A stretch of DNA of 35,722 nt from a virus: positions 1-35,722 of the IMG/VR virus record IMGVR_UViG_3300028025_001086; one strand, 5' to 3'. How positions within the stretch are numbered: the first letter of the stretch is position 1; every line of letters begins with the position of its first letter. Positions 2,982-13,841 of the stretch are shown in pieces. Position numbers and translations under genes: made by a program. The notes under the pieces are model-generated. The model was not told the DNA's origin, ran no database searches, and worked only from the letters and a program-made list of their open reading frames with translations.

Positions 2982-3237
2982 TGTTAAATTGCTTTAGTTT
3001 TTGGAGAACTGTTATCCTACTTTCATCATCATATCCAGACTTTTTGAAACCACCCTTACCTGCTCTATCTTTAAAGCCAAATTGATCACAGTTTCCTGCA
3101 CCATGAAATCTACATTTAAAAATATTTTTTCCAGACTTATCAAACTTACCTGTTGGATAACCTTTAGCAAGACATGGCTTACCACTATGCTTAGACACAC
3201 CCATACAAAATATCTTTCGGCTTGGTCTTCCTCCCAT
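2788..3237 (-). CDS. HGG-type small protein next to small terminase (149 aa)
   Basis: The N-terminal half carries a cysteine/histidine pattern (MGGRPSRKIFCMG, KPCLAKGYPTGK, then CRFHGAGN at about residues 42-49) like that of phage proteins often found beside small terminases. The pattern could bind zinc. The C-terminal 60 or so residues lie in the 194-nt overlap with the small terminase gene and are basic and helical. It shares its first base with the stop of the upstream replication gene. Role unknown; association with packaging is inference from neighbourhood. Confidence 0.6.
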   Translation of the reverse strand: MGGRPSRKIFCMGVSKHSGKPCLAKGYPTGKFDKSGKNIFKCRFHGAGNCDQFGFKDRAGKGGFKKSGYDDESRITVLQKLKQFNNDRNKAEQYYYGTIKPKLIEQSYTSRYIHRANLRRSSGIRAIKAKQYLSDQLDVILQSVKKARE

Positions 3238-3995
3238 TAAAATTTATTCTTCTTCATCTCCCATGGCTTGATACCATTAGCCTTGTTATACTTTACACGA
3301 GCAACGTACCTTTCACTTCTCTGCTTACCATTGGATTGAAGAGCTTCTGTTATCTTTTGTTTAGCAACAACTTCAGGCAGTAAATTTTTTTGGCGTAGCT
3401 CTTGCTGTTTATAATCCAACACTAACTTCATATACCATTTATAAGTTGGGTTATTTAATAGATTGTTAGTATCGGCAGGGGATAGACCATTTAGAAACCT
3501 ATACAATGTACTAATCAATACATCTTTATCGTTCTTATACTTGTTTATTATATCATCTACTCTTTTATCATTATCCATTTTATTATTAGAATTATTTCTA
3601 TTAAGATATATATTAAAGTTATCTTTATTAATACCAGTCAGCCTGACTGCACCAATCAGTCCCCCTGACGTATCACTCATGTCCCCCTGACTGCTACCTA
3701 CCATTAAAACAGGGTTAAGTTTATATAAATTAGTAGAAGAAAGACGCTTCTTTTTTAGCAATCCAAGCGACACCATTAATTTAATTCTTCGGTAAATTGT
3801 AGCCTTAGATATTCCAAGAAGGCTGTGCATAAGAGCAAGACGTGGGTAGCACTCGCCAGTCTTCTGATTTGAGTACCTTAAAAGCACAACAAGTATCGCT
3901 AGGCAATCGGCTTTATTCCTACCTGCCAAGCCTAAGAATATATCGTTTTTAAATAGACTTACAGGCACTCGTATATGACTTGTGTATTTTGCCAT
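3237..3995 (-). CDS. Winged-helix replication-initiator-like protein (252 aa)
   Basis: Residues about 20-95 look like a winged helix-turn-helix: GECYPRLALMHSLLGISKAT followed by the recognition helix IYRRIKLMVSLGLLKKKRL, as in the HTH_36 family of plasmid and phage replication proteins. A low-complexity linker (NRNNSNNKMDN) separates it from a helical C-terminal part that may recruit host helicase or loader, as lambda O and DnaD-like proteins do. It overlaps the upstream gene by one base. It could instead be a transcription regulator. Confidence 0.55.
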   Translation of the reverse strand: MAKYTSHIRVPVSLFKNDIFLGLAGRNKADCLAILVVLLRYSNQKTGECYPRLALMHSLLGISKATIYRRIKLMVSLGLLKKKRLSSTNLYKLNPVLMVGSSQGDMSDTSGGLIGAVRLTGINKDNFNIYLNRNNSNNKMDNDKRVDDIINKYKNDKDVLISTLYRFLNGLSPADTNNLLNNPTYKWYMKLVLDYKQQELRQKNLLPEVVAKQKITEALQSNGKQRSERYVARVKYNKANGIKPWEMKKNKF

Positions 3996-4393
3996 TATTT
4001 CTTATGCTTACATGTCTTATCATGTTTTTCTTGCAACTGTATCATCTCCATAGCCCAGTCCCCCTCATAAACACCCTCTAATTCCGATTTTAAAGGCTTT
4101 AGACGCATGATCTTTAACTCTAACGAGTTCGTGTCCATAGCTGTTGGTTTATAATAGACAAGATATGCAGGAATACCTAGTTTTTCAGCGATATATTCAA
4201 CAACTGTGGTATATTTATTATATTTTCCTGTATCATAGACAGTTTCAACTATTGCTAGAGGTTGCCAACAAGGTTTGTTGATACAAATAGATACTTGATC
4301 CACATCAATATAACCTGCTCCAGAAATGTTGTTACGAAACCACTCTGAATAGTAATCTCCAAATCCACCTACGAAATAATTATATCTAGCCAT
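3995..4393 (-). CDS. Conserved hypothetical, possible nuclease-like fold (132 aa)
   Basis: The sequence YNYFVGGFGDYYSEWFRNN followed by IDVDQVSICI, PLAIVETVYD and LGIPAYLVYY resembles a phage family I recall with conserved D-x-D, E-T and PAYL-x-Y motifs. The strand-loop arrangement with D (about residue 30-32) and E (about 50) recalls PD-(D/E)XK-type cores, but the catalytic lysine is not evident. Ribosome-binding site GGAG lies 8 bases upstream. Function unproved. Confidence 0.6.
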   Translation of the reverse strand: MARYNYFVGGFGDYYSEWFRNNISGAGYIDVDQVSICINKPCWQPLAIVETVYDTGKYNKYTTVVEYIAEKLGIPAYLVYYKPTAMDTNSLELKIMRLKPLKSELEGVYEGDWAMEMIQLQEKHDKTCKHKK

Positions 4394-4420
4394 GATAAGC
4401 TCCGCTTTGAATGTTATCCA

Positions 4421-5071
4421 TTAATTTTTAATCTTATAATAAAAACTATCGTCATCTGATGTACTCCAACTATCTGTTTCAACACTTGGATAATCCATAT
4501 TAGTTTTATAATCTGGTATCTGATCTTTAACTGTAAAGTTAGGTAAATTAAATAGTATTTTATTGTTTGGCATGAGTGCATAATTACCTTGCCACTTATC
4601 CCCTTTGTTTAATTCTAATATATGATGATGCTTATGTTCAGCACTTACTTCACTATAAGTTATGTTTAATAAGTTCATATCAGGTTGAGCATAGTCAATA
4701 CTAAATATGTAATTAGCTCTGTGTAATTTATTATTACGATCAATAAACTTACACTGTGCTGTGGCTAGAGCATTATACTCAATAACATTAGCGTAATAAG
4801 ATAAGCAATCCCAATACACAGTTTGTTTTAATTCTAAATCAACTACATCTTTTCTATTGTATTGATCAGAAAAAAAAGCTGTGATTGGTAGCCTTGCATA
4901 GTTAGCACCATTTGGCAGCATGATATTAAACAATGGTGTTCTTCCTTCTAAGGTAGTTATACTATGGATAAGACATACCTCTTCTTCTCCAATATGTTTT
5001 TCTTTATTGTATAAATATTCTAATCTAACTTTGGCTTTCCATACTGGAATGTTATGATTAAGAAATGACAT
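4421..5071 (-). CDS. Hypothetical protein (216 aa)
   Basis: Third-largest product of the leftward early operon. It has no signal peptide or membrane segment. It looks beta-rich, with a basic histidine cluster (HKHHHILEL) near residue 147 and an acidic serine-rich tail (SWSTSDDDSFYY). Its start overlaps the end of the 49-residue coiled-coil gene by 14 bases, so the two are co-translated. I recognise no family. Confidence 0.65.
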   Translation of the reverse strand: MSFLNHNIPVWKAKVRLEYLYNKEKHIGEEEVCLIHSITTLEGRTPLFNIMLPNGANYARLPITAFFSDQYNRKDVVDLELKQTVYWDCLSYYANVIEYNALATAQCKFIDRNNKLHRANYIFSIDYAQPDMNLLNITYSEVSAEHKHHHILELNKGDKWQGNYALMPNNKILFNLPNFTVKDQIPDYKTNMDYPSVETDSWSTSDDDSFYYKIKN

Positions 5072-5207
5072 TAGCTCTCAGTTTCATTAATTCAATGTTA
5101 AGAACTTGTATCTCTTCATTTAATCTATCTATTTCTTTTTTAAGTAATACAATCTTCTCATCATAAATTTCTATTACATCCTCAACGTGCAGCTCTTGAT
5201 CAATCAT
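5058..5207 (-). CDS. Small coiled-coil protein (49 aa)
   Basis: Begins directly after the TAA of the upstream gene, with GGAG eight bases before ATG, and ends inside the next gene. The product has a heptad pattern of leucine/isoleucine (KIVLLKKEIDRLNEEIQVLN), so it should form a short coiled coil and probably acts as a dimer or by binding a partner. Function unknown. Confidence 0.55.
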   Translation of the reverse strand: MIDQELHVEDVIEIYDEKIVLLKKEIDRLNEEIQVLNIELMKLRANVIS

Positions 5208-5477
5208 TTAGTTCTCCAATTTTTTAATAGATAAAATTACGCCACGAGGGATTACAACGCAGTCGCCTACGTCTAAGCTGTCTGAATTAAAACTATATGT
5301 TGCAAAAGTTTTTACCCAATCTTTATTCTCTTCATAAAGATAACCTATTGTAGTACACATAGCAGGAACTAAGTCTTTTAAATCTTCCTCAGTATTCCAT
5401 GCGTTGTCGCAACTGTTTATATCCAGCCAACTTATAATAACTTTATCAAAGTTTATGGGTTTCATACCAGCTTTCAT
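5208..5477 (-). CDS. Hypothetical protein (89 aa)
   Basis: The frame overlaps the end of the Cro-like gene by 32 bases with the ATG at 5477, or by 20 with the ATG at 5465 (MKPINFDK). Neither start has a strong ribosome-binding site. The product is acidic, with GDCVVIPRGVILSI near the end looking like beta strands. Position next to the Cro-like protein suggests co-regulation; function unknown. Confidence 0.6.
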   Translation of the reverse strand: MKAGMKPINFDKVIISWLDINSCDNAWNTEEDLKDLVPAMCTTIGYLYEENKDWVKTFATYSFNSDSLDVGDCVVIPRGVILSIKKLEN

Positions 5478-5673
5478 AAAAATTATTAGGTTGAATTGAT
5501 CCTTTAGTTCTTTCAGTTATAACTTTCATAAACTTAGGGTGTGGAATACGCTGACAATTTTTCCATCTTAAAATAGTTACTGTTGGATTTGTTCCTGTTA
5601 ATCCAAATAGCTTTGCCAGTTCTTTATTGCTGAGCTTATGATCTTCTTGATACTGCGTTAGTTTGTGTTTCAT
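5446..5673 (-). CDS. Cro-like helix-turn-helix protein (75 aa)
   Basis: Residues about 14-50 fit a Cro/CI-type helix-turn-helix: LSNKELAKLFGLTG, then TVTILRWKNCQRIPHPKFMK, followed by a segment like that linking the HTH to the dimer strand in YdaS/Cro proteins. Length is typical of Cro. It is the second gene behind the leftward promoter whose spacer contains a palindrome, so autoregulation at that site is likely. There is no integrase, so any role in lysogeny is not supported; it more likely times early transcription. Confidence 0.7.
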   Translation of the reverse strand: MKHKLTQYQEDHKLSNKELAKLFGLTGTNPTVTILRWKNCQRIPHPKFMKVITERTKGSIQPNNFYESWYETHKL

Positions 5674-5765
5674 TTAGTTTTCCTTTTTATTCTATTACCA
5701 AAGCAATCAAACATTCTGTGATACCTCTTTAATAATTTAATTAATTGTGATTTATTCTTATTCAT
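5670..5765 (-). CDS. Leader peptide-sized protein (31 aa)
   Basis: First open frame of the leftward operon, with AAAGG seven bases before ATG. Its TGA overlaps the ATG of the Cro-like gene (ATGA). The product is short and basic (MNKNKSQLIKLLKRYHRMFD at the start). It may be a real small protein or serve mainly to deliver ribosomes to the regulator. Confidence 0.5.
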   Translation of the reverse strand: MNKNKSQLIKLLKRYHRMFDCFGNRIKRKTK

Positions 5766-5781
5766 ATTTACCTTTCTGTTT

Positions 5782-5808
5782 TAAACCCTTATAAACCAAT
5801 ATGGTTTA
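5782..5808. promoter_or_regulatory. Operator: palindrome plus half-site
   Basis: TAAACC and GGTTTA face each other across AATAT at 5792-5808 inside the leftward promoter. A third TAAACC half-site lies at 5782-5787, exactly 10 bp (one helical turn) from the first. The likely ligand is the Cro-like product of 5446-5673. Related half-sites GGTTAT (5835-5840) and GGTTAA (5854-5859) lie on the rightward side. Confidence 0.6.
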
Positions 5809-5815
5809 GTGTCAA
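5788..5815 (-). promoter_or_regulatory. Leftward early promoter
   Basis: On the minus strand TTGACA (5815-5810) is separated by 16 bp from TATAAG (5793-5788), close to the sigma70 consensus. It fires toward the Cro-like operon beginning at 5765. Its spacer contains the palindrome at 5792-5808, so a bound dimer would block RNA polymerase. Confidence 0.75.
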
Positions 5816-5824
5816 TTATTATTA

Positions 5825-5852
5825 TTGACATAAAGGTTATTAAGACTAATGT
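5825..5852 (+). promoter_or_regulatory. Rightward promoter for the recombination block
   Basis: A perfect -35 TTGACA at 5825-5830 is followed after 16 bp by a weaker TAATGT at 5847-5852. The spacer contains ATAA-AGG-TTAT. The stretch TTGACATAA is shared with the promoter at 444. The weak -10 suggests it may need activation or be modest in strength. It precedes the exonuclease gene. Confidence 0.5.
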
Positions 5853-5876
5853 AGGTTAAAAAATGAAAGGCGTAAA

Positions 5877-6830
5877 ATGGTTATTGATTTAACAAAGAAC
5901 AATTCTACAGCAGCACTAAATAATTTTGATCCTGATATTTGTATTAAGTATTATGAAAAACTTAATCTTGATCATGGATCTCCAAGTCAGACAGCACAGT
6001 CAAATGCAGATTGGTTGGTAAACTACTGTTGGTTTGATCAAACTGACAGGCGGAACAAAAACATATCGTTCCGAATGAATGCTGGCGTATCTATCGGCAG
6101 AGCATCACAAAAATATGTTTCTAAATATATGTATGAAGCAGAAAAGAAAATGCTCATTGAGAAAAAAAATATAGATACTATCATCAAAGAAGAAATTGCC
6201 GAATACGACAAGTATCAACCTCATAATGAATTAGATAAAGAACAGCACGAAGATACAAAAAATTATCTTATGGATATGATTAAGATTACTTGCAAAGCAT
6301 TAGATGATCTTAAACTTGGAGATGAAGTAGCAAGTGAAAGATACTGCACGCATAAATTTAAAGAATTAGTTTTAGATAAGATTGGCAGAATAGATTACGA
6401 ACAAATGAATGGAACTAAACTTGTAGAGTTAAAGACCAAGCATAGATCAAAAAGAAAGTCAGATACTAAAGCAGGGTTTAGTTGGATCAAAGCATACTTA
6501 CCAAAACAACCAGATATAAATCATGTACGCCAGTGTGCTTTCTATTGGTATGCTACAAAAAAAATCCCTCACTTACTTTATGTTAATCAAGATAACTTTA
6601 ATGTGTTTACTCCTGACACTTGTGATTTGCTTACGCCTGAGTATATGGAATTTTTAATTCAACAAGATTTATTAGTTGATAAAATTCGTCAGAACATTGT
6701 GTACTTATGTCGTGGCTCGGCAAAAGATATGAGTAAATTAATTCCTCCACCAGACTTTTCAAGTTATATTTGGCGAGATGTACAGCCAGAGCTAATAAAA
6801 AAAGCAGCTAGCCTCTGGGACAATGTGTAG
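5877..6830 (+). CDS. PD-(D/E)XK exonuclease, YqaJ/Cas4-like (317 aa)
   Basis: The core is KIGRIDYE (D173) then KLVELKTKH (E185, K187), the D...E-x-K metal-binding set of the PD-(D/E)XK superfamily. HVRQCAFYWYAT (Q219, Y223) provides the Q-x-x-x-Y motif typical of RecB, Cas4 and lambda-exonuclease-like enzymes. About 170 helical residues precede it. It would resect double-stranded DNA ends to give single strands for the annealing protein encoded at 7273, forming a Red-type pair. First gene behind the rightward promoter; ribosome-binding site GAAAGG lies ten bases upstream. Confidence 0.8.
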   Translation: MVIDLTKNNSTAALNNFDPDICIKYYEKLNLDHGSPSQTAQSNADWLVNYCWFDQTDRRNKNISFRMNAGVSIGRASQKYVSKYMYEAEKKMLIEKKNIDTIIKEEIAEYDKYQPHNELDKEQHEDTKNYLMDMIKITCKALDDLKLGDEVASERYCTHKFKELVLDKIGRIDYEQMNGTKLVELKTKHRSKRKSDTKAGFSWIKAYLPKQPDINHVRQCAFYWYATKKIPHLLYVNQDNFNVFTPDTCDLLTPEYMEFLIQQDLLVDKIRQNIVYLCRGSAKDMSKLIPPPDFSSYIWRDVQPELIKKAASLWDNV

Positions 6831-6834
6831 AATC

Positions 6835-7005
6835 ATGGATATAAATTTTTATAAAAAAACTCATTATAAGATTATGGAAAGTTATAGGCATGATATTATG
6901 ATGCGTAAAATTAAAGAGAGAGAAGATAAAGAATTTAGAAAATTATTTATAAAAATATCTTCAATTATAATTGCAATCGTACTGTTAGTAACAGTAGTAT
7001 TTTAA
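6835..7005 (+). CDS. Small C-tail-anchored membrane protein (56 aa)
   Basis: The C-terminal 20 residues (IKISSIIIAIVLLVTVV) form a hydrophobic membrane segment behind a strongly charged helical cytoplasmic part (MMRKIKEREDKEFRK). The ATG at 6835 avoids overlap with the exonuclease; an in-frame ATG at 6823 would add four residues with an eight-base overlap. Neither has a clear ribosome-binding site. Function unknown. Confidence 0.55.
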   Translation: MDINFYKKTHYKIMESYRHDIMMRKIKEREDKEFRKLFIKISSIIIAIVLLVTVVF

Positions 7006-7008
7006 TAA

Positions 7009-7215
7009 ATGAAAGTAATTCTTACAATAATACTAATGAATGGCACAGTCTATAATTTAGGCTATGAAATTGATTCTTATTCTGCAAGAATATGTGATAA
7101 GTTATTTGATAAAGTAACTTACATAGGTAAGGCAAGTGGCAAGAATAAGTATGGTACTTTCTATAAAGGTAAGGAAGTATTTGCTCACTCTTGTTCATAC
7201 GAGAAAAAAGCATGA
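7009..7215 (+). CDS. Hypothetical protein (68 aa)
   Basis: Starts four bases after the preceding stop. The product begins MKVILTIILMNGTVYNLGY; the hydrophobic start is too short and broken to be a convincing signal peptide. The C-terminus reads FAHSCSYEKKA. No family recognised. A 12-base repeat, TGCTCACTCTTG, at 7183 recurs at 7229 just downstream. Confidence 0.6.
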   Translation: MKVILTIILMNGTVYNLGYEIDSYSARICDKLFDKVTYIGKASGKNKYGTFYKGKEVFAHSCSYEKKA

Positions 7216-7272
7216 TTGAGAAATACGAGTATGCTCACTCTTGCACAATAGATAAAACAACTAAAGGAAACA

Positions 7273-7878
7273 ATGAAAGAAAAAATAAAACAAGTTAATG
7301 ATTTGTGTGCAGCCAATGGCTCATACTTAAATCAACATGGAAAGAAAACAGTATCAGCTTGGAGTAAGATTAAATACTTTAGAGAATTGTTTGGTACTGA
7401 ATATGGAATAAATTGTGTAATACAAGAACACTCAGATCGTTATGTTATAATGAAATGTATTATAACTAAATCAGATCCTGAACATATTGTAGCAACTGGT
7501 TACTCAAAACAATACCGAGATAAACCAGGCTACTTAGAGATTGCTGAAACATTTGCAATCACACGAGCTTTATCATTCATGGGTATTCTTCTTGAAGATA
7601 TAACTTCAAAGGAAGAGTATGAGGAATTAGATATTCCAATACAGCCTATGAATGGAAAAGATACTACATCAAACAATATAAATTATGATGATAGTATAAT
7701 TAATGAACTGACGAAGAAGATAGCATTTGCTCATCACACAGCGAAACTAGATTTCCTTTGGAGAGCAAACAAAGATCTTCTTAATCAGATAAAAATAAAA
7801 GATCTCGCAACTTACAATTCTATCTTGCAAAGATTTAATAGTAAGCGTGATGAGATCACAACTCAAAATGAGGTATAA
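7273..7878 (+). CDS. Erf/Rad52-like ssDNA-annealing protein (201 aa)
   Basis: The segment EIAETFAITRALSFMGI (residues 89-105), with TSKEEYEEL after it, matches the helix of Erf/Sak3/Rad52-like phage annealing proteins (usually E-T-x-A-x-x-R-A-L-x-x-x-G followed by a S-x-E-E motif). YSKQYRDKPGYL before it fits the preceding strand-turn. The C-terminal 70 residues are variable, as in the family. Together with the exonuclease at 5877 it makes a two-component recombinase used for replication-coupled repair or concatemer formation. AAAGGA precedes the start. Confidence 0.75.
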   Translation: MKEKIKQVNDLCAANGSYLNQHGKKTVSAWSKIKYFRELFGTEYGINCVIQEHSDRYVIMKCIITKSDPEHIVATGYSKQYRDKPGYLEIAETFAITRALSFMGILLEDITSKEEYEELDIPIQPMNGKDTTSNNINYDDSIINELTKKIAFAHHTAKLDFLWRANKDLLNQIKIKDLATYNSILQRFNSKRDEITTQNEV

Positions 7879-8223
7879 ATGAACGAGCCGATCAAAGACA
7901 AGATATATTTAAATCTTGTCCCAAACGTAAATAAAAAACCAGGTGATAACCAACCAGTATTAGTAGCACCTAATTCTCCAAAAGCTCCAGAAGGAAAGAA
8001 TTGGAAGATGAATGTGAATATTGGTGGATCATGGTTTGATTTTTGCGGATTTGATGGAACAGATATTGAAGGTAATCCAACAGGTGGATACACAATTATC
8101 TTAACCAAAAAAGATGCAGCACAAGCAACAGCAGGAGCAAATAAACAACCTGGATTTAAAGCTAGTGGATTTCAAAAGAAACCATTTACAAGCAATAAGT
8201 CTTTCGGTAATAGACAATACTAA
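7879..8223 (+). CDS. Hypothetical, possibly ssDNA-binding accessory (114 aa)
   Basis: Starts immediately after the annealing-protein stop. Residues about 35-75 (EGKNWKMNVNIGGSWFDFCG and the strand GGYTIILTK) suggest a small beta barrel, while the C-terminal third is disordered, glycine/phenylalanine/asparagine-rich (KKPFTSNKSFGNRQY). Single-strand-binding proteins have such a barrel plus flexible tail, and the location fits, but the acidic tip is absent. Assignment is weak. Confidence 0.6.
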   Translation: MNEPIKDKIYLNLVPNVNKKPGDNQPVLVAPNSPKAPEGKNWKMNVNIGGSWFDFCGFDGTDIEGNPTGGYTIILTKKDAAQATAGANKQPGFKASGFQKKPFTSNKSFGNRQY

Positions 8224-8245
8224 TAGCTACGTAAGTAACTATTAC

Positions 8246-8310
8246 CTCTATCCCTAGGGTTTTCATCAGGCAGTCATGCCTACCCTTTCATTGTTTCCCT
8301 AGGGGTAGAG
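8246..8310 (+). ncRNA. Structured RNA element with alternative pairings
   Basis: CTCTATCCCTAGGG (8246-8259) pairs with CCCTAGGGGTAGAG (8297-8310) over 14 bp, with one G-U pair in the rightward mRNA. Inside, AGGCA-GTCA-TGCCT forms a tetraloop hairpin at 8268-8281. A competing helix AGGGT (8256-8260) with ACCCT (8282-8286) would stack on that hairpin and break the outer stem. No U-run follows, so it is not a plain terminator. It sits in the 109-bp gap before the gene at 8333 and could be a switch, processing site or stability element. Confidence 0.55.
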
Positions 8311-8332
8311 TAAAAAACAGAAAAGGATATAC

Positions 8333-8623
8333 ATGGTAAGCAAGTCAGACTTCATTGATATTGAAGAAAAAATTCAGAAAAGAATTATAGAAGAACGTAA
8401 TCAAGAGTATGGAGATTACCAAGAGAACTTTGCATTACTTGCTGAACTGTTCTCTATAGTTCTATTTAATAAAATTAAAGTAGCATTACAACCAGAAGAT
8501 GTTGGTCATATAATGATGGCACTTAAATTATATCGCTGCACTAAGAAATATAAAGCAGATAGTTATGATGATCTATCTATCTATTGTAAGATGACTAAGC
8601 AAGTTAGACAGAATAAAAAATAA
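8333..8623 (+). CDS. DUF6378-like conserved phage protein (96 aa)
   Basis: The pattern ERNQEYGDYQENFALLAELF, then HIMMALKLYRCTKKYKADSY and DDLSIYCKM, matches a common small all-helical phage family (as I remember, DUF6378) with a MazG-like four-helix look. No pyrophosphohydrolase activity can be claimed. The ribosome-binding site AAAAGGA lies about seven bases upstream, right after the RNA element at 8246-8310, so its translation could be controlled by it. Its stop overlaps the next start as TAATG. Confidence 0.7.
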   Translation: MVSKSDFIDIEEKIQKRIIEERNQEYGDYQENFALLAELFSIVLFNKIKVALQPEDVGHIMMALKLYRCTKKYKADSYDDLSIYCKMTKQVRQNKK

Positions 8624-8823
8624 TGAAGGTTGTAAGATTAAAAAAGTGTGAATGTTATTTTACTTATGTAGAAGAATTTGACACAGCAGAACATGCCATT
8701 GATCCTGATAAACGAGGTTTGTTTATTAAAGTTAAGGTTGGAGCAATAAGAGTAAACTCAGTAAGTATAAGACAGAAAGAAGATAAATATGATGAACATA
8801 AAGCAGCTAAAGGAACAAATTAA
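8623..8823 (+). CDS. Hypothetical protein (66 aa)
   Basis: Translationally coupled to the preceding gene. The product starts MKVVRLKKCECYFTYVEEFD, looks mainly beta in the first two thirds, and ends in a charged helix. Its last 35 bases overlap the DnaA-domain gene. No family recognised. Confidence 0.6.
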   Translation: MKVVRLKKCECYFTYVEEFDTAEHAIDPDKRGLFIKVKVGAIRVNSVSIRQKEDKYDEHKAAKGTN

Positions 8824-9298
8824 ATTAAGATACACTACTAATGTGTATGCAAACTTAACAGATAAAGAACGTAAACTTTATCGTTTAGGTTTTAAGACTG
8901 GATATAAATTAGCCAGAGAGTTTTTTAAAAAGCATGTTGTTACTAAACAGAATACAGTTTTTAAAGAAGTTGTTAAGTATGTAACAATCAATGATGTTGT
9001 AGTGCCTGAGAATGTAAAAGAAATGTTATCTATTGTTGCCAATCAACTTAGCATAGATGTTAATGAAATACTTACTAAGACTAGAATACAATCAGCTGTG
9101 ATTGCACGATCCATTTTAATTAATGTTCTTAGAGATAAGTACGCAATGCCATTTACAAAGATAGGTGTGCTACTTGGCAATCGTGATCATACAACTATGA
9201 TCCATCATGTTAGAATGAAAATGAATAAGGAACATTTCTGGAAACCAGATCATATTATCTGGAACAGATATAAATATGTGATGGATAATATTAAGTGA
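8789..9298 (+). CDS. Stand-alone DnaA domain IV protein (169 aa)
   Basis: Residues 73-145 match the DNA-binding domain IV of the bacterial initiator DnaA: an N-terminal helix, then QSAVIARSILINVLRDKY, IGVLLG and the signature NRDHTTMIHHVR (131-142), which in DnaA contacts the 9-mer DnaA box. No ATPase domain (Walker motifs) is present; residues 1-70 are a basic helical extension. It could recruit or titrate host DnaA at phage boxes, or act as a repressor. Candidate targets are the boxes at 12622-12679. The start may be 8789 or 8792 (tandem ATGs). It ends base-to-base against the convergent gene at 9299. Confidence 0.85.
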   Translation: MMNIKQLKEQIKLRYTTNVYANLTDKERKLYRLGFKTGYKLAREFFKKHVVTKQNTVFKEVVKYVTINDVVVPENVKEMLSIVANQLSIDVNEILTKTRIQSAVIARSILINVLRDKYAMPFTKIGVLLGNRDHTTMIHHVRMKMNKEHFWKPDHIIWNRYKYVMDNIK

Positions 9299-9475
9299 CT
9301 ACTTTTTAAATCCAGCTAATAAACTCTTATAAGACTTCTTAGAAATTGTAGAATCGGATTTAGATCTTGATGTACCAGCTTTCTTTCTTTGATTTATATT
9401 ATAGTATAAACCTTTGCGTGCCATCTTACCTTCTTTTGTTTCGTGGTATTTAGATTCTTTTCTTTCGTCTTCCAT
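9299..9475 (-). CDS. Small basic conserved marine-phage protein (58 aa)
   Basis: Last gene of the late transcript, abutting the convergent DnaA-domain gene with no gap. The product is strongly basic; the section MARKGLYYNINQRKKAGTSR followed by SKKSYKSLLAGFKK is of a type I recall in many marine phages. It could bind nucleic acid or be packaged, but function is unknown. Starts one base past the preceding stop. Confidence 0.65.
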   Translation of the reverse strand: MEDERKESKYHETKEGKMARKGLYYNINQRKKAGTSRSKSDSTISKKSYKSLLAGFKK

Positions 9476-9476
9476 A

Positions 9477-9626
9477 TTACATTGCCATTAATGATTTGCC
9501 TTTTTTCTTTACACCTTTAATAGTTCCTTTATTCTCTGATGCGTAGAAAACTGTCTTACCTTTTTCTTTACCATATTCCTTTTGCATTTCTGCTAAAATC
9601 TTTTTACCTTTTTTATTCAGTGGCAT
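9477..9626 (-). CDS. Small basic conserved marine-phage protein (49 aa)
   Basis: Starts immediately after the preceding TAA. MPLNKKGKKILAEMQKEYGK then KTVFYASENKGTIKGV is a pattern I recall as widespread in marine and other phages as a tiny protein of unknown role. It is lysine-rich and compact. Confidence 0.65.
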   Translation of the reverse strand: MPLNKKGKKILAEMQKEYGKEKGKTVFYASENKGTIKGVKKKGKSLMAM

Positions 9627-13116: not shown

Positions 13117-13224
13117 TTATATTTTCAATATGGCTTTGATAGATTCAATAGCTTTACTGATTTCATCTTTATAAGCGTAACCAATGAAACCTCCAGCTAT
13201 TAAACCAATAATAAGTGTAATCAT
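13117..13224 (-). CDS. Small membrane peptide (35 aa)
   Basis: ATG overlaps the TGA of the HNH gene (ATGA). Residues 2-17 (ITLIIGLIAGGFIGYA) form a glycine-rich membrane helix of the kind seen in YtxH-like or small phage membrane proteins, followed by a short charged helix. Function unknown. Confidence 0.5.
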   Translation of the reverse strand: MITLIIGLIAGGFIGYAYKDEISKAIESIKAILKI

Positions 13225-13841
13225 ATTATTAACTTGTTTGATTTAGAAAGATTAGCAGATGGTGTTAAGTATTGCAAGTTCCATTCTACATGTAATCCAC
13301 ATACTAATTTACTGTTCAAAGGAACTATGTGATCTACATGATAACCTTTGGGACAGTTCTTATAGATCTCTTTTATCTTTTCAAGATTAGCAAATTTAGG
13401 AGTAGCTCTTAATTTAGTTGCTCTTCTTTTAGCATCAAGTGCTTTTACTAAATGACGATTATTTAAAAGATATTGTTTTCTATATTCTTTATTTTTTAAA
13501 CGATATTCTTTTATCTTATCTTTATTATTTACACGATATTCTGCGTTATATTTTTTTGTCTTATCTTTATTTTTTAAACGATATTTTTTTATTTCATCTT
13601 TGTTATTTATATAATGTAATCTATTTAATTCGTTAAACTTTTCTTTATTTTTTAAATAATATAATTTGTTTTTTTCTTGTAATTTTTCTTTATTATTTAG
13701 ACGATATAATTTACTTAATTGGTTTATTCTATTTTTATTTTCTAAATAAAATATTCTACATCTTTCTTTTATTTTTTCTCTATTATTTAAATAATATTTT
13801 TTACTACTTGGTTTACGATCTTCTTTATTTTTATATGGCAT
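13221..13841 (-). CDS. HNH endonuclease with N-terminal charged repeats (206 aa)
   Basis: The C-terminal 50 residues hold an HNH domain: YHVDHIVPLNSKLVCGLHVE, then WNLQYLTPSANLSKSNK, with the H-D-H, N and N/K residues in place. Residues about 15-130 are built of near-repeats of 11-15 residues around Y-x-L-N/K-N-K-E/D-K, also visible in the DNA as AT-rich repeats. The repeats probably bind DNA. Such free-standing HNH genes are often mobile homing enzymes but can also help packaging; its position between tail and lysis genes fits a mobile gene. Confidence 0.8.
   Translation of the reverse strand: MPYKNKEDRKPSSKKYYLNNREKIKERCRIFYLENKNRINQLSKLYRLNNKEKLQEKNKLYYLKNKEKFNELNRLHYINNKDEIKKYRLKNKDKTKKYNAEYRVNNKDKIKEYRLKNKEYRKQYLLNNRHLVKALDAKRRATKLRATPKFANLEKIKEIYKNCPKGYHVDHIVPLNSKLVCGLHVEWNLQYLTPSANLSKSNKLII

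Follow-up and report, generated by a model that had tools for sequence, protein, structure and literature searches.

The control region at positions 5766-5876 separates two divergent gene arms in a 35,722-base virus record with 31.9% G+C, the whole of which is called the window below. The leftward arm carries a small helix-turn-helix (HTH) protein and, further on, an O-like initiator; the rightward arm opens with a nuclease gene (Table 1). The virus is a podovirus of the HTVC010P type: its TerL shares 83.6% identity over 96% with that of Pelagibacter phage HTVC010P, the best 21 TerL records listed are all pelagiphages, and its early gene order is common to the isolates. Among known pelagiphage groups, this type is reported to rank second in abundance (PMC12753301). 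Complete freshwater HTVC010P-related phages measure 35.8-36.5 kb with ~32% G+C, and Fonsibacter has been inferred as their host (Chen et al., 2019, PMC6811365). Given the likeness of the window to these phages, its host is probably freshwater SAR11 (Fonsibacter).

Table 1. Features of the divergent control region and of the two early arms, in window coordinates.
Feature	Position	Strand	Evidence
252-aa HTH_36 / replication initiation (O-like) protein, leftward arm	3237..3995	-	profile matches
89-aa protein, phrog_25889, next leftward gene after HTH	5208..5477	-	PHROG match
75-aa Cro/C1-type HTH protein, proposed repressor	5446..5673	-	predicted fold, structure comparison
31-aa ORF MNKNKSQLIKLLKRYHRMFDCFGNRIKRKTK with ribosome site; stop overlaps HTH start (ATGA)	5670..5765	-	pN/pS 0.32 to 0.52 within length classes
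Extra half-site TAAACC, beside expected leftward start	5782..5787	.	AACC at same offset in 13/45 regions
Leftward -10, TATAAG, spacer 16	5788..5793	-	sequence match
Dyad TAAACC-AATAT-GGTTTA, proposed operator OL	5792..5808	.	core at least 6/8 in 45/45 distinct control regions
Leftward -35, TTGACA on - strand	5810..5815	-	perfect in 33/45 control regions, rest one base off
Rightward -35, TTGACA	5825..5830	+	perfect in 27/45 control regions, rest TTGACT
Half-site TAACC (GGTTA on +), just downstream of rightward -35, proposed OR	5835..5839	-	TAACC, either strand, within 30 nt in 45/45 regions
Rightward -10 candidate, TAATGT, weak, spacer 16	5847..5852	+	not above shuffled over 45 regions
Second GGTTA near rightward start	5854..5858	-	at same offset in 4/45 regions
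317-aa nuclease, first rightward gene	5877..6830	+	weak match to phrog_1706; annotation of relatives as putative nuclease
201-aa protein, in place of relatives' annotated single-strand-annealing protein	7273..7878	+	position only
169-aa protein, C-terminal Bac_DnaA_C DNA-binding domain (PF08299), end of rightward arm	8789..9298	+	domain match

An initial annotation of the region had described two perfect back-to-back -35 elements, a palindrome in the spacer of the leftward promoter and a further half-site one helical turn away, and all of these are present. The -35 hexamers (TGTCAA and TTGACA on the + strand) are 9 nt apart, and no other divergent perfect pair with a gap of up to 40 occurs in the window. 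A promoter hexamer scan of 5000-9500 gave no excess (18 found versus 24.2 expected), and neither divergent promoter is among the 18. A single protein-binding palindrome formed by the -35 pair was considered and rejected, as the distance between the hexamers varies from 7 to 22 nt among relatives. The dyad lies inside the 16-nt leftward spacer and shares two bases with the -10, and the additional half-site is offset from it by exactly 10 nt. As a bare palindrome the dyad is not rare: the window holds 241 inverted repeats with 6-bp arms, which comes to 0.75 per 111 bp; requiring two or more G/C in each arm lowers this to 0.28. The exact core, AACC-N5-GGTT, occurs once in 35.7 kb, and a genome-wide palindrome search with up to three mismatches returned 39 matches versus 22 expected; these are diffuse, AT-rich hits among which no further convincing operator stands out. 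What lifts the dyad above chance is its conservation.

The Cro-like gene had been placed just downstream of the promoters. A Cro/C1-type protein is indeed encoded in the leftward operon, but as its second gene, preceded by a 31-aa ORF that is absent from the program's ORF list. An ORF of this kind precedes the HTH gene in the 72 distinct spacer-plus-HTH combinations from relatives (see below), mostly with 28-32 aa and mostly with the ATGA overlap; exceptions have other lengths or overlaps, and in L016, L023 and L062 the ORF runs on into a ~104-aa frame. Counted over 42 distinct sequences in three length classes, its pN/pS is 0.32, 0.42 and 0.52. The product is basic, with a conserved core LLK-YH--FDCFGN, and had no match in the phage collection, HTVC010P-type pelagiphages included. 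After the HTH gene come the phrog_25889 protein, others and then the O-like initiator. The suggested split between early and replication genes is thus not a clean one: the initiator lies leftward of the divergent early promoters, and the nuclease, annealing and DnaA-C genes rightward. The early genes (3237-9298) are mosaic, with near-identical nucleases beside neighbours of 28 to 100% identity; beside such nucleases, for example, the O-like protein ranges from 39 to 98% and a 216-aa gene from 28 to 99%. An immunity-like diversification special to the HTH locus was rejected, because all early genes are mosaic and HTH is not the most variable. Elsewhere in the window, a protein with an endonuclease VII-like match and lysine/asparagine-rich repeats (13221-13841, - strand) is maybe a homing endonuclease.

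The 75-aa protein is predicted to adopt a Cro/C1-type five-helix fold. The model, built from a 22-row alignment, has a pLDDT of 92.3 and helices at residues 4-11, 16-22, 30-38, 46-55 and 62-72. In VIA-align it superimposes on P22 c2 (Z 8.1, rmsd 2.5-2.6, 63 residues) and on 434 Cro (Z 6.9, rmsd 2.3, 60 residues), two among many same-fold proteins aligned to it; Z scores of this size speak for the fold and not for the function. Foldseek gave no PDB match to the model at E under 0.001, and a PDB search with the sequence gave nothing significant. HTH_3 is matched by 12 of the 22 family members (best E 0.0029), while the window protein itself shows weak matches, to another HTH (E 0.28) and to the phrog_35 repressor (E 0.0081).

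Conservation was assessed among freshwater-type relatives, meaning those IMG/VR contigs retrieved with the window's own nuclease (70 loci) and HTH protein (60 loci). The 72 spacer-plus-HTH combinations reduce to 45 distinct control regions when identical ones are merged, the window included. Every region has an AACC-N5-GGTT-like dyad in the spacer of the leftward promoter, always in the same register: all 45 match at 6 or more of the 8 arm bases and 43 at 7 or more, as against 11% and 2.5% of shuffled regions at 6/8 and 7/8. On the rightward side, TAACC lies within 30 nt downstream of the -35 in 45/45 regions (7.75 +/- 2.4 in shuffled sets, maximum 15); its offset is 4, with both orientations seen, or else 14, 21 or 22. 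Between the two -35s it occurs in none of the 45. In four relatives (L007, L011, L013, L115) the rightward site is AACC-AATAA-GATT, matching 7/8 of a full operator-like dyad. The 45 regions are related by descent, so that shuffles overstate significance; the repeated TAACC placements and the freedom of the dyad centre are the stronger argument. The dyads comprise 12 distinct 13-mers with 10 different centres, and their distance to the leftward -35 ranges from 2 to 6 nt. Since the register is the same but the centres and this distance vary, the arms are kept and the rest drifts.

Taken together, these features suggest with moderate confidence that the 75-aa protein acts as an autorepressor of the Cro type, a brake on both early operons that works without a CI partner in a lytic programme. 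Candidate sites occur at both early promoters in all 45 regions, the dyad leftward and TAACC rightward, where the window itself has half-sites only. The initial annotation recognised no CI-sized repressor, and wider searches agree: in a PHROG scan of 50 window ORFs, which left out the three largest and several short ones, only the HTH protein matched a repressor family, and the S24-type repressor domain PF00717 is found in 0/8 records, window included. The DnaA-C protein has an anti-repressor PHROG match at E 0.087. A bistable switch of the lambda kind is therefore not supported, there being no second repressor seen and one full dyad plus half-sites only; because no CI-like partner is apparent, the arrangement would rather act as a negative-feedback governor, and feedback of the Cro type is the explanation with the fewest assumptions.

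In the circuit, as we infer its binding, repression, order of affinities and timing, host RNA polymerase would start both divergent early promoters after infection. Leftward transcription would yield the 31-aa and HTH proteins and, more distally, the O-like initiator; the nuclease, annealing and DnaA-C proteins would come from the rightward transcript. As it accumulates, the HTH protein would bind the conserved dyad in the leftward spacer and block its own operon. It would also bind the TAACC site or sites over the rightward promoter, more weakly than the leftward dyad, and both operons would be turned down as replication and late expression begin.

The dyad might instead be bound by a different protein, either a host regulator or some other DNA-binding protein of the phage (for example the O-like or the 31-aa basic protein), with the HTH protein acting elsewhere. 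This seems unlikely, though two observations lend it some weight. Strict co-variation of dyad allele with HTH allele was looked for among freshwater-type relatives and not found: L046 has an HTH protein identical to the window's and a different dyad, while L002 and L056 have the window's dyad with an HTH protein 69% identical. As the two assort independently, both HTH alleles would have to read the same core. However, the NP of the turn/recognition region is common to all HTH variants aligned, which makes a common core plausible. The position of the dyad, in the HTH operon's own promoter in 45/45 regions, and the single occurrence of the exact core in the window also argue against another protein. 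The HTH gene is present in 65 of the 70 nuclease-found loci, and in the other five the nuclease match begins at most 143 nt from the contig edge; as no freshwater-type relative was seen to lack the gene, this set offers no way to separate dyad from protein.

The second observation comes from marine phages, which include some with a homologous HTH protein and without the motif. Enough upstream DNA was available in 143 marine-type loci, 71 with and 72 without HTH, from which 27 HTH-plus and 39 HTH-minus regions were taken for motif comparison; loci with an HTH-to-nuclease distance below 50 or above 200 were excluded, as was every repeated 60-mer. The marine homologues are about 31-38% identical to the window protein. 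The freshwater motif at 7/8 occurs in 0/27 HTH-plus and 0/39 HTH-minus regions, and no other dyad rose above shuffled sequence (HTH-plus score 5.96 versus 6.49 shuffled). The HTH gene itself is present in Skadi-1, 204P, 034P, 010P and Lederberg (6/11 genomes counting the window) and absent from the whole genomes of HTVC024P, 100P, 035P, Greip and HTVC028P. It is dispensable within the group, because both some marine-type loci and these genomes do without it. Skadi-1 is described as carrying two transcriptional regulators while lacking an RNA polymerase of its own (PMC10504331). Many marine HTH-minus relatives (L146-L225) keep CCGTT twice, ~21 nt apart, upstream of the nuclease (CCGTTATA...CCGTTGACA), and this pair between the divergent genes may be another control element.

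Less probable still is a dual role, in which the HTH protein represses the leftward promoter from the spacer and activates the rightward one. The half-sites just behind the rightward -35 would fit such a role, as would a -10 no better than in shuffled sequence beside a -35 that is perfect or one base off. However, sites downstream of a -35 normally block polymerase rather than help it, and weak -10s are perhaps tolerated by promoters of AT-rich hosts.

The initial annotation also recognised no integrase, and none was found here: PF00589 and resolvase PF00239 each occur in 0/12 records, the window among them and some of them fragmentary (for PF00589, the window, relatives and two isolates). Freshwater HTVC010P-related phages are likewise reported as lacking integrase (2019, PMC6811365), and on these two grounds the close group of the window looks lytic. 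Beyond it, one of ten further named phages, the more distant HTVC028P (TerL 58%), has an integrase match. HTVC028P (L142, L145) combines this match with an annotated XRE regulator and is a possible temperate branch. A genome-collection scan with short peptide patterns, which could miss distant prophages, found one nuclease relative, L306, in a Woesearchaeota MAG, where it lies on a contig of 17 kb; several genes of this contig, HTH among them, are of HTVC010P phage type and no host flank was recognised. It is most likely a misbinned phage contig whose Woesearchaeota host label is wrong. That the locus is a remnant of a lysis-lysogeny system, whose ancestor lost CI and integrase while Cro and operators stayed, as had also been suggested, is conceivable but unsupported and very improbable: gene order does resemble lambda's two early arms and HTVC028P has its integrase match, but HTVC028P has neither a window-type HTH nor the divergent arrangement, PF00589 is in none of the 12 records, and the sole genome-collection match is this phage-like contig.

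Returning to the Cro-type autorepressor, a defined candidate operator, promoter pair and protein together form a control circuit that can be tested directly, and marine isolates that naturally have or lack the HTH gene make it possible to gauge the value of such a governor for a lytic phage. A more speculative extension, to which we give little credence, is sibling exclusion, whereby the diffusible repressor of a first lytic phage would keep early promoters repressed in a second, related phage that enters the same cell; if true, this would be an immunity-like effect in phages that never lysogenise.

Among known systems, the Cro proteins of lambda, 434 and P22 are the closest parallel. As there, a small five-helix HTH protein is encoded in an early operon leading to a replication initiator; the window's putative operators, too, are a dyad within the promoter of that operon and sites at the other early promoter. 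In lambda, Cro lies on the arm leading to the O initiator and the recombination genes on the other; in the window, HTH takes Cro's place relative to the O-like initiator, and the nuclease and annealing genes take that of the recombination genes. Unlike in these phages, no CI partner and no integrase were found in the window, its -35s are 9 nt apart with no immunity genes and nothing like cI between them, it has one full dyad plus half-sites instead of two sets of three, and a 31-aa ORF precedes the HTH gene. Restriction-modification C proteins and HigA-type antitoxins share the fold and regulate themselves from a dyad at their own promoter; however, no toxin or restriction partner adjoining the window's HTH gene was recognised. 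No operator for HTVC010P-type phages is described in the titles and abstract openings of the literature searched. HTVC024P, 100P, 035P and Greip differ from the window in having no HTH gene, and HTVC010P-type pelagiphages in having no match to the 31-aa ORF and, in the marine regions, no AACC-N5-GGTT at 7/8. HTVC010P, Skadi, HTVC203P/204P/034P and Lederberg share the window's gene order: a homologous HTH gene divergent from a putative nuclease gene followed by a DnaA-C gene, and a putative transcriptional regulator on the HTH side.
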